NCBI RefSeq assembly: GCF_014199215.1
Contig: NZ_JACIJC010000004.1
Location: 186,001 to 250,000, forward strand
DNA from: Sphingobium boeckii
Lineage (GTDB): Bacteria; Pseudomonadota; Alphaproteobacteria; Sphingomonadales; Sphingomonadaceae
Direction of reading: 5' to 3'
Length of the DNA stretch: 64,000 nucleotides
Below the pieces are notes generated by a model. It did no database searches and had not been told where the DNA came from. It saw only the letters and a program-made list of their open reading frames with translations. Position 1 is the stretch's first letter, and each line of letters begins with the position of its first letter. Made by a program: the position numbers and the translations under genes. Below, in pieces: positions 5,796-51,528 of this stretch.

Positions 5796-5806
5796 GCGAA
5801 CACCTC

Positions 5807-5899
5807 GTCATTCCCGCGCACGAGGGAATCCCGCTGCCTTTGTGTTGAAGCCGACAGACGAAGAAGGAGAAGCGGGATGCCCGCTTTCGCGAGGATGAC
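5807..5899. repeat. GTCA-hairpin-TCCCGCT paired repeat, copy A (inside the bkd operon)
   Basis: Two inverted arms (about 5807-5835 and 5871-5899) surround a 35-base filler. Each arm reads GTCA, then a CCCGCG-type hairpin, then TCCCGCT, pointing towards the other arm. It is the shortest kind of copy; related copies are at 19985, 35824 and 51431. It lies between the stop of bkdA1 and the start of bkdA2, so it will be transcribed and may influence the ratio of E1 subunits. Confidence 0.8.
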
Positions 5900-5922
5900 G
5901 AGAGAGGCGTGCACGAACATCG

Positions 5923-19245: not shown

Positions 19246-19546
19246 TGTGGGTATCGTGCGCGGTGTGGGAACGACGGATTTAGGGGGAAAAGTGTCCACT
19301 TTTTGTGGCCCAAGATCCCAGTGTCTTTGACGCGCTCGCGATGCGTCGAAGCGTGTTGTTTTGTCGTTGAAGTGATGATTGTTTGGAGATGGCTGTGCGG
19401 AGGCAGAAAGCCCGTGCCGCGCTGGTAGCCGAAGCGGATGATGCGAGAAGCATATTTGGAGGCTATCACAGGCAGCGGGCTGTAGGACAGGGTGGGAATA
19501 AAAAGCGGCAGGCCAGCTAACGACCACTTGCGGACATGGCTTCATC
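19246..19546. other. Intergenic stretch without a recognisable gene
   Basis: About 300 bases between the SDR gene and the first repeat arm. It has lower GC than the flanks, with a short inverted run near 19288-19303 (AAAGTGTCCACTTTTTGTGG). I find no frame with family similarity or a ribosome site. It may be remnant sequence from an earlier insertion. Confidence 0.4.
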
Positions 19547-19586
19547 GTCATCCCGGACTTGATCCGGGATCCCGCTCTTTTTCAGG
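19547..19586 (+). repeat. Left arm of the GIY-YIG unit
   Basis: GTCA, stem TCCCGGA, loop CTTGA, stem TCCGGGA, then TCCCGCTCTTTTTCAGG. The outermost stem pair is T-A and the innermost is A-T, where the right arm has C-G and G-C. Confidence 0.8.
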
Positions 19587-19883
19587 CAAGCGTTTCGAAC
19601 ATATCGTGCCATTGGGCATTGCTCTGCTCGATCAGGGCAAACTTCCATTCCCGTCGCCAGCGCTTGATGCGCTTTTCATGGGGGCGATGCACTGAAGGAT
19701 ATCATCGCCGCGCTCCGCCCACACAAGTCGGGTTAGCCTATATCGCGTGCAGAAATCCGATCCCTCATTACGCCGATGCTGATAAATGCGGGCTGCAAGA
19801 TGCGTCGTGACACCGACATACATCGTGCCGCGATAACGATCGGCCATAATGTAGACCCAACCGCCTTTCCTTTCACTTCCCAT
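19582..19883 (-). pseudogene. GIY-YIG single-domain nuclease, frameshifted before the catalytic Glu
   Basis: From ATG 19883 the frame encodes a typical UPF0213-like GIY-YIG domain: GGWVYIM (GIY position), MYVGVT (YIG position) and the conserved Arg in AARIYQHR. At a run of five G (19680-19684, C on the coding strand) the frame is lost by the equivalent of one deleted base. The other frame continues as HEKRIKRWRREWKFALIE and ends at 19582. Restoring one base gives a complete 100-residue protein. The current product loses the metal-binding glutamate and would be inactive. The gene fits tightly between two inverted repeat arms. A sequencing error in the homopolymer is possible, but the neighbouring gene is also broken. 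Confidence 0.8.
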
Positions 19884-19891
19884 ACGCAAAA

Positions 19892-19931
19892 CTTGAAGAA
19901 AAGCGGGACCCCGGGTCAAGCCCGGGGTGAC
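19892..19931 (-). repeat. Right arm of the GIY-YIG unit
   Basis: Read on the minus strand: GTCA, stem CCCCGGG, loop CTTGA, stem CCCGGGG, then TCCCGCTTTTCTTCAAG. It is the inverted partner of 19547-19586. Confidence 0.8.
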
Positions 19932-19984
19932 GAGGAAGGTGAGCGTGATACCAAAACCCGACAGTCCGCTTCCCACCATTTTCC

Positions 19985-20143
19985 GTCATTCCCGCGAACG
20001 CGGGAATCCCGCTTCTTTCTCCGCGGCTTCGCGTCTCCGCGCGAACCTCTTAATGTTCACGCGGAGACGCAGAGAAGCAAAGAGGAAGGAGAGAAGAACG
20101 AAGGAAGAAGCAGAAGCGGGATTCCCGCTTTCGTGGGAATGAC
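19985..20143. repeat. GTCA-hairpin-TCCCGCT paired repeat, copy B (with internal cassette)
   Basis: A 159-base element starting 54 bases from the GIY-YIG unit. Outer arms 19985-20014 and 20114-20143 each read GTCA, TTCCC-type hairpin, TCCCGCTT. The interior carries a second inverted pair, GCGTCTCCGCGCGAAC at 20031-20046 and its complement at 20055-20070 (15 of 16 pairs), with an 8-base loop. Copy C at 35824 has the same nested plan. Confidence 0.85.
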
Positions 20144-20170
20144 GGGTTTGGTGTGTCTCCAAATTGCCTT

Positions 20171-35766: not shown

Positions 35767-35823
35767 AGGCGAAAAACTACCGGCAGAACTATTCACACGC
35801 AACGTCTGCTCTCCACCAATTCC

Positions 35824-35979
35824 GTCATTTCCGCACACGCGGGAATTCCGCAGTCGTCTCCGCGTCGTCGCGTCTCCGCGCGAACCTCCTTATGTTCACG
35901 CGGAGACGCAGAGGCGCGAAGAGGAAGGGAAGAGATGAACAGCAGGACGAAGCTGGATTCCCGCGTGCGCTGGAATGAC
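35824..35979. repeat. GTCA-hairpin paired repeat, copy C (with internal cassette)
   Basis: A 156-base element with the same nested plan as copy B. The outer arms begin with GTCATTTCCGC at 35824 and end with TGGAATGAC at 35979. The inner inverted pair GCGTCTCCGCGCGAAC is at 35870-35885 and its partner at 35894-35909, identical to copy B except for the loop. The outer arms are more degenerate than in copy B. Confidence 0.8.
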
Positions 35980-36126
35980 AAATGGCGTGTAGCGCGCGGT
36001 TGGCCTGAGCCGCCTCACCCGCTGACCGCCCATTCCTGTCTGGCGGACATCGGCCAAAGGTCACACTAGGGTCACACTTGAAACCAATTTTCTGTCGCAT
36101 TTTGCAGGATGATTTTACCCTGCTTC

Positions 36127-36197: not shown

Positions 36198-36364
36198 GGA
36201 TGATGGTTCGGGCTCGTACTCTCAGGCTCCAAAGCCGAAAGATCGGGCGCTTCCTTGTTCGACGATTTCAAAAAGCCGCGCCGATTGAAGCAGATCAGGC
36301 CGCTGTAGGACAGCGATAAAAGACGGCGGCGCGGGACTGGCGACGGCTTAATTTACATTTAACC

Positions 36365-36452
36365 GTCATGCTGAACTTGTTTCAGCATCCATTTTTCCAC
36401 GCGGACAATGGTCGTGACTTTGAAATGGACCCTGAAACACGTTCAGGGTGAC
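36365..36452. repeat. GTCATGCTGAA-type inverted repeat pair
   Basis: Left arm 36365-36392 is GTCA, stem TGCTGAA/TTTCAGCA around CTTG, then TCCAT. The right arm, inverted, is GTCA, stem CCCTGAA/TTTCAGGG, then TCCAT, ending near 36452. The arms keep the frame GTCA...TCCAT but differ in the stem, where the outer pair T-A changes with C-G. Confidence 0.8.
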
Positions 36453-36561
36453 GATCACGTTCTACCAACGTGAACCTGACCGAGTCTATCGAACGCCTTC
36501 TTTACTGTGTCCGAGCGGAAGGAAAGGCGTCGACACACTCGATCCGAACGGTTGGTAGCTT

Positions 36562-51413: not shown

Positions 51414-51430
51414 GAAAGCCCCAATCTCCC

Positions 51431-51515
51431 GTCATTCCCGCGAAAGCCGGAATCCCGCTGCCTTAATGGGTCGGAGCGAAAAAAGAAGCGGGATCCCCGC
51501 TTTCGCGAGGATGAC
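51431..51515. repeat. GTCA-hairpin-TCCCGCT paired repeat, copy D (inside the ybb operon)
   Basis: 85 bases between the ATPase stop and the permease start. The left arm (51431-51459) and the inverted right arm (51487-51515) both read GTCA, CCCGCG-type hairpin, TCCCGCT. The filler is 27 bases, related in size to copy A at 5807 but different in sequence. Confidence 0.8.
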
Positions 51516-51528
51516 GTTGAAATACCCG

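Follow-up and report, generated by a model that had tools for sequence, protein, structure and literature searches.

Single-domain GIY-YIG nuclease genes and inverted CGTC-tagged hairpin repeats occur together across Pseudomonadota

A family of genes for single-domain GIY-YIG nucleases and inverted, CGTC-tagged hairpins go together across Pseudomonadota, and the nuclease lineages tend to have a stem and a loop of their own. The locus under study lies in a 64,000-nucleotide stretch of the Sphingobium boeckii genome (the window), where an earlier note, made from the letters alone, had recorded a GIY-YIG gene within inverted hairpin arms at positions 19547-19931; this observation is partly confirmed here, with corrections. 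Among the matches listed, the gene is found within the long head-to-head pairs of such hairpins and is absent from the short ones. The evidence favours a nuclease that specifically recognises its hairpin as what links the two. We lean towards reading the window locus as a degenerate copy of an autonomous CGTC-REP element, whose nuclease would recognise its own hairpins in single-stranded DNA and cause their copying or movement, the short pairs being derivatives.

The CGTC superfamily of REPs was defined by Di Nocera, De Gregorio and Rocco in 2013, apparently without a dedicated transposase, and is reported there from all alphaproteobacterial orders and five phyla (PMC3733652). A gene that lies inside CGTC REPs, varies with them and, for two repeat types, is numerically tied to them makes the question of the missing transposase directly testable. 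If our reading is true, the REP/REPIN way of life would have arisen a second time, independently and on another catalytic fold, and the many matched enzyme-hairpin pairs would offer a genomic setting for finding single-strand nucleases of chosen specificity.

The element of the window and its sister copies

The two arms (Table 1), aligned over 40 bases, are identical at 33 of them and enclose a gene with a PF01541 domain. All seven differences are transitions, four of which form two paired stem changes (T-A to C-G at the second stem pair and A-T to G-C at the loop), in agreement with the earlier description of two compensatory changes. Folded as single-stranded DNA, each arm gives a stem of 8 bp closed by a CTTGA loop, at -8.5 and -10.4 kcal/mol (z-scores -3.05 and -2.64); the loop had been read correctly, but the stem length of 7 bp given before omitted the outer A-T pair. 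A query made of the 30 leading bases of arm A, with up to 3 mismatches allowed, matched arm A alone (0 expected), and a looser pattern matched arm A and arm B (0.08 expected).

Table 1. Positions, in the window, of the parts of the GIY-YIG element and of the gene-less hairpin pairs
Feature	Position	Strand	Remarks
Unit common to three genome copies (C4, C5, C7)	19521..19978	.	extends 25 and 46 bases past the two tags
Arm A	19546..19576	+	CGTC tag, 8-bp stem, CTTGA loop, CCCGCT tail
GIY-YIG nuclease gene, UPF0213/Slx1-like, single domain	19582..19883	-	PF01541; frame-broken near 19680
Arm B	19902..19932	-	inverted partner, anatomy as arm A, two compensatory stem changes
Head-to-head pair with filler	19984..20144	.	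different CGTC hairpin (GNAN loop); adjoins the element
Head-to-head filler pair	5806-5900		GNAN loop
Head-to-head filler pair	35823-35980		GNAN loop
Head-to-head filler pair	51430-51516		GNAN loop
Head-to-head pair	36364..36453	.	CTGAA-CTTGT-TTCAG type, REPIN-like

The reading frame of the window gene is broken: the N-terminal and the C-terminal portion of the protein are encoded in different frames, with a 2-base length difference from the intact, open-frame copy on contig C5 (locus L005); the C7 copy of the unit shows the same 2-base difference. In this genome of 4.03 Mb and 14 contigs, the three copies lie at unrelated sites and have about 458 bases in common. Arms of the window type that end in CCCGCT number six genome-wide, all of them in the three full GIY-YIG copies (three head-to-head pairs), and no short gene-less pair of the exact CCCGCT-tail type was found in this genome; since all six arms belong to full copies in unrelated places, gene and arms seem to have travelled together. 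One further copy of the bare arm A hairpin is on C3, where it forms a short inverted pair, with CCA as its tail and a partner that has decayed.

A profile search located PF01541 at nine places in the genome. Two further intact single-domain genes, on C1 and C2, are bounded by inverted arms whose hairpins differ in type (CCCGC-GCAG-GCGGG and CTGAA-CTTGT-TTCAG), and a more distant gene (L002, C5:338478-338693) has inverted arms of another make that agree at 30 of 30 bases. The flanks of two longer GIY-YIG genes, L009 and L001, scored just 8.0 and 8.5 in the arm test described below, from which UvrC (L006) was left out for having too little flank. In L001 (C2:168254-168463), the GIY-YIG domain is in frame with an apparent SPOUT RNA methyltransferase. 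This fusion may be the insertion scar of a mobile GIY-YIG unit rather than a designed fusion. A GIY-YIG/SPOUT-type fusion of this sort has been reported in Erythrobacter (PMC1564403).

The proteins of the window family are single-domain and 99-136 amino acids long, with PF01541 alone over the Pfam cut-off and hence no intron, intein or DNA-binding module by that search; one protein (P0002) has a sub-threshold match to T5orf172, and NCBIfam returned no family for the four family proteins given. Residues Y9, Y20, R30, E67, K71 and N86 (L003 numbering) are 98-100% conserved in 157 intact relatives, and include the active-site Tyr, Tyr, Arg and Glu (Y9, Y20, R30, E67) established for the GIY-YIG fold. 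A model of the relative L043 (pLDDT 93.5) had as best PDB matches the UPF0213 protein 1zg2 (E 1.5e-3, TM 0.55) and Slx1-Slx4 (E 2.8e-3, TM 0.58), with no match in the PDB at an E under 0.001; Slx1 is described as a structure-selective nuclease of branched DNA. The median dN/dS was 0.34 over 4110 unsaturated pairs and 0.53 over 157 pairs with dS below 0.9, into which distant pairs are mixed; among the matches listed, eight close pairs (dN below 0.25) gave 0.10-0.26. By an automatic test, at most 24 of the 181 copies tested are broken or partial, an upper figure because the open-frame L005 was counted among the broken copies.

Arms and nucleases across genomes

Inverted arms were sought by local alignment of 200 or 250 bases upstream of each gene with the reverse complement of the downstream bases, using score thresholds of 16 and 20 and, as controls, shifted positions in the same loci. 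A profile built from three of the S. boeckii proteins had matches in 54 of the 118 genomes of the order Sphingomonadales. Among the census loci with full flanks, 91 of 105 reached a score of 16 and 78 of 105 reached 20, leaving 14 of 105 below 16, against 1 of 696 shifted positions (L121-L200) and 8 of 3591 (other set). The flank check proposed in the earlier note for GIY-YIG genes of this order hence came out as predicted. Matched arms reached 20 in 80 of 114 cases versus 118 of 1358 mismatched pairings. Two loci, L070 and L186, were dropped for short flanks, and ten (L007, L008, L011, L040, L201, L203, L209, L210, L213 and L216) were dropped as duplicates in the anatomy, tree and nearest-relative counts.

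Beyond this census, 56 of the 76 usable loci from the named GTDB set (best 80 of 394) reached 16, and a phylum-wide draw found the family in 113 of 397 genomes. The threshold of 16 was reached by 26 of 35 loci from other alphaproteobacterial orders (controls 3 of 504) and by 19 of 30 from Pseudomonadota outside the Alphaproteobacteria (controls 0 of 436), fractions that may be optimistic since the loci tested outside the order were best matches plus 40 hand-picked from the list. Loci under 80 bits are left out of the main-clade counts, and five Sphingomonadales loci out of the out-of-order count. For a second GIY-YIG clade (query P0004), 12 of 30 loci reached 16, in a set that holds some duplicates and with a count lowered because the query overruns the arm in some loci. 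This more distant clade (L002, L198-L200, L204-L228) often lies within inverted arms of the CGTTCGTCCTGAGC..GTCGAAGGAC type.

Novosphingobium aromaticivorans, Sinorhizobium meliloti and Azospirillum lipoferum are among the species named in PMC3733652. The family gene lies within inverted CGTC arms in these three, with scores of 29, 26 and 39.5 versus control maxima of 9.5-11, and in a Rhodopseudomonas palustris locus, with a score of 42.5. The Neisseria gonorrhoeae relative (41.9% identity) is surrounded by 16 dRS3-like repeats that form an array of 3.3 kb (at most 5 mismatches in 24), so the arm test is uninformative there: its score of 22.5 compares with own controls of up to 25.5 and was not counted as an arm pair. 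Weak scores were obtained for Planktothrix (16) and Spirosoma (14). The Planktothrix agardhii relative (L263, plasmid NZ_LR882964.1; control maximum 11.5) lies between an MmeI-type restriction gene and the DISARM gene drmA.

Anatomy was scored in the 186 loci of the main clade, which have a tagged hairpin on both sides in 99 cases, on one side in 47 and on neither in 40; shifted controls have one on both sides in 4 of 858. Of the 198 arms at the 99 two-sided loci, 149 have the tag CGTC and 36 TGTC, and the loop has the form CTTGN in 117 and GNAN in 69, in a scan whose score favours just such tags and loops; their tails include CCA in 105 and CCC in 36. When the reward for tag and loop was removed, CGTC was still the commonest tag, and CTTGA, CTTGT, GAAA and GAAG were the commonest loops. 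The inner stems of the left and right arms are identical in 83 of the 99 elements, as compared to 12.6% under random pairing.

Arm type follows the nuclease, which is the outcome of the arm-versus-nuclease comparison that had been suggested. In tests that remove host kinship only partly, and in which related genomes are not independent points, the loop class required 12 changes on the protein tree versus at least 20 in 200 shuffles, and the arm class 35 changes versus at least 59 in 200 shuffles. Under the same limits, the nearest relative in another genus had the same arm class in 63 of 97 cases (shuffled mean 12.4, maximum 29 in 1000), some of the misses being A/G variants of one stem. For the 12 genomes with several arm classes, the nearest relative from another genus gave the exact class in 16 of 31 cases and the loop type in 28 of 31; one genome, G074, holds six family genes with five arm classes.

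Gene-less pairs, repeat number and mobility

Head-to-head pairs of two repeat types fall, among the matches listed, into two sizes, 43-146 bases (n = 42) and 340-439 bases (n = 12); the GIY-YIG gene is inside all 12 of these long pairs and none of the 42 short ones, one listed place (G112) being omitted from the count. Full elements and gene-less pairs were also compared outward of the tag. In the 226 arms of full elements, A or G comes first in 88%, and C is scarce over about 12 bases, accounting for 11% of positions 1-12 versus 31% of positions 14-40. Fifteen short pairs at a distance of over 350 bases from any recorded GIY-YIG match gave 90% for the first base, and 17% versus 30% for C, in a small sample drawn from nine loci, with seven of the pairs in L078; without L078 (16 arms) the figures are 88%, and 12% versus 29%. 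On these similar figures, full elements and gene-less pairs share an end bias.

The four filler pairs of the window have CGTC or TGTC tags, a CCCGCT tail in six of eight arms and a GNAN-type hairpin, so that they mostly join the tail of one arm type to the hairpin of another. The earlier note had listed four copies, A-D, as keeping the same arms as the element; our four pairs were matched to these copies without coordinates from the note. On that matching, the tag and, in six of eight arms, the tail agree with the claim, whereas stem and loop differ.

The number of further repeats was compared between genomes with and without a gene bearing the given arm type, counting those with at least 5 further copies among the 118 genomes. 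For type B (CTGAA-CTTGT-TTCAG) these were 9 of 12 genomes with the gene versus 3 of 106 without (P 5e-9), or 11 of 20 versus 1 of 98 (P 2e-9) when genomes were classed by protein; for type C (CCCGC-GNAN-GCGGG), 8 of 14 versus 6 of 104 (P 9e-6). The relation between repeat number and gene that had been predicted was borne out for these two types and was equivocal for the window's own, with 1 of 4 versus 1 of 114 (P 0.067); a rank test for the window type gave P 9e-9, with two of the three elements of its own genome unsubtracted. In S. boeckii, the other repeat types reach at least 39 and 54 copies, the latter being type C.

Two genomes of the order, G065 with 109 type-C repeats and G010 with 46, hold orphan populations of this type, and four more genomes without a type-C gene have 6-13 repeats. 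These counts speak against the model; a deeper search for missing genes listed no additional candidate of type C in G065, and in G010 no member of the family at all. Past activity may explain these orphans, by analogy with REPs in strains devoid of RAYT; REPs are reported to persist in strains that lost theirs (PMC3733652).

The GIY-YIG elements are multi-copy and locus-polymorphic. In two further genomes of the genus, relatives can be aligned from one arm to the other. Seven Sphingobium plasmid records (four read) carry a full element in the spacer that separates fnrL from a response-regulator gene. Where these relatives hold the full element, the TomTYG64 plasmid (L257) has an exact solo hairpin tagged at both ends, and the TomTYG74 plasmid (L256) one with mismatches; such solo hairpins are as deletion between direct half-stem copies in the two arms would leave them. 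The element is absent from TomTYG72, TomTYG65 (where another hairpin is found) and S. herbicidovorans. These plasmid alleles are losses or absences, not proven insertions: no clean insertion site was found among them, the junctions being unclean and the gene-less sites differing otherwise too. None was found either among genus relatives of the window locus, where the one spacer read (G119) was too divergent. In L247 (G118 C3:1375392-1375631), from one of the two genomes of the genus with relatives aligned arm to arm, an internally deleted copy keeps both arms and the two gene ends; it is a natural step from a full element to a short pair.

No clear target-site duplication was seen among the three genome copies, which share 25 and 46 bases beyond the tags. 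These outer stretches (19521-19545 and 19933-19978) hold GTCCGCAA and AGTCCGCTTCCCACC, the latter varied on C5, and similar outer motifs flank the G110 copies with different arms (L132, L181). Counts of 6-mers gave nothing clear by way of a conserved outer motif; a pattern search found GTCCGCAA in 6 of 245 outward flanks versus 3 of 3853 controls.

Interpretation and known systems

The mechanism that we propose takes ssDNA recognition, cutting near the tag, and copying or movement from the RAYT analogy and from reported work on Ssn nucleases (see below). The nuclease would recognise its own arms as single-strand hairpins and cut beside the CGTC tag when the DNA becomes single-stranded during replication, recombination or uptake, and cutting would lead to the unit being copied or moved, with or without the gene. 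The gene-less short pairs would then be non-autonomous derivatives mobilised in trans, like REPINs by RAYT, and the window and C7 copies, whose frames are broken, would rely on the intact one on C5. Counting against this reading are the outcome of the search for a target-site duplication or a clean insertion junction, the orphan type-C populations, the 14 census loci below 16, the finding of no exact-tail short pair in the window's genome, the equivocal repeat count of the window type and, in genomes with several arm classes, an exact class match in no more than 16 of 31. A wider claim, for which our confidence falls a little short of even, is that the mobilising enzymes missing from the CGTC REP superfamily as a whole are single-domain GIY-YIG nucleases. 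They would do for a class of hairpin-ended, single-strand mobile elements what the HUH enzyme RAYT does for GTAG REPs, with non-autonomous REPIN-like offspring across Pseudomonadota, dRS3 included.

The main rival to an autonomous element is a housekeeping nuclease of the Ssn type, whose recognition of ssDNA hairpins would modulate DNA uptake or recombination, the repeats being selected as its sites and the cassette moving by homologous recombination. The work reported on Ssn in Neisseria and the place of the gonococcal relative, inside its dRS3-like array, suit this account, as do the homology that the arms offer for recombination and the solo hairpins of the two Sphingobium plasmids; broken or partial copies, numbering up to 24 of 181, the six genes with five arm classes in G074, the copies at unrelated sites and the end bias that short pairs share with full elements all speak against it, and we consider it rather unlikely. 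GIY-YIG is also a classical homing fold, and a parasitic gene could have cut and entered head-to-head pairs made by another agent, which would place it in the spacer of such a pair, as observed, and would leave pairs such as the one on C3, with the bare arm A hairpin and another tail. Homing into pre-existing repeats is nevertheless judged highly unlikely, since gene and arms seem to have moved as one: all six window-tail arms are in the three full copies, and the genome holds no exact gene-less pair; Pfam, moreover, shows no domain beyond GIY-YIG over the cut-off.

Some genomes are rich in CGTC REPs (S. boeckii has 54 copies of type C); the repeats could flank many genes by sheer frequency between genes, and the GIY-YIG gene would then be nothing special. 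Such hitch-hiking or chance is rejected by the shifted-position and mismatched-pair controls given above (1 of 696 and 8 of 3591 at a score of 16; 80 of 114 versus 118 of 1358 at 20), arm type moreover following the protein across genera, and we assign it a very small probability. For the autonomous element, the RAYT-like pairing of a GIY-YIG enzyme with GTCA-hairpin repeats that the earlier note had put forward stands with respect to the flanks, the arm type and two of three repeat types, but not with respect to filler pairs of the same type as the element.

Regarding known systems, Chenal et al. reportedly described, in Nature Communications in 2025, Ssn GIY-YIG nucleases of ssDNA with cognate dispersed repeats (NTS) in Neisseria; many Ssn homologues are said to have in silico sequence specificities of their own, and the stress is reportedly on ssDNA cleavage and natural transformation in Neisseria. 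The family studied here resembles Ssn, as reported, in the GIY-YIG domain, the cognate dispersed repeat and homologues with sequences of their own. We know of no mobile-element reading in the Ssn work, nor of a link from it to the CGTC REP superfamily. In the light of this work, we treat enzyme-repeat recognition as probably known and already published, and the former statement that no description of such a pairing was known has probably been overtaken. What we rate as new is the connection with the CGTC REP superfamily, an element structure resembling that of REPINs, and the co-variation and copy-number evidence.

UPF0213 and prokaryotic Slx1-like proteins have the fold and size of the nuclease described here (Dunin-Horkawicz et al. 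2006, PMC1564403). That survey predicts roles in repair or restriction and raises the question of whether there are molecular parasites among other GIY-YIG members; its consulted parts make no mention of flanking repeats, whereas here inverted arms flank the gene. No paper linking GIY-YIG to REPs was found among the matches listed from open-licence PMC.

The CGTC-tagged REPs of PMC3733652 are like the arms described here in their CGTC tag, their 8-9 bp stem starting with A and their loop of 4 or 5 bases, and the window arms, with a CGTC tag, a stem in the 8-9 bp range and a loop of 4-5 bases, fall within that description. These REPs are mostly head-to-head dimers, centred on alphaproteobacteria and inclusive of the Neisseria dRS3. 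They differ from the window arms in having a CCA-like tail, where the latter have CCC, and that paper found no transposase gene associated with them, whereas here a GIY-YIG gene lies between the arms. RAYT/TnpA-REP systems share with the present element a gene between inverted, tetranucleotide-tagged hairpins, short head-to-head derivatives and lineage-specific hairpins (PMC3733652), and the location of a gene within inverted REPs of a repeat family, by which a REPtron/RAYT is recognised, is what we find here. They differ in enzyme and tag, RAYT being an HUH tyrosine transposase that goes with a GTAG tag, and the element described here combining a GIY-YIG nuclease with CGTC.
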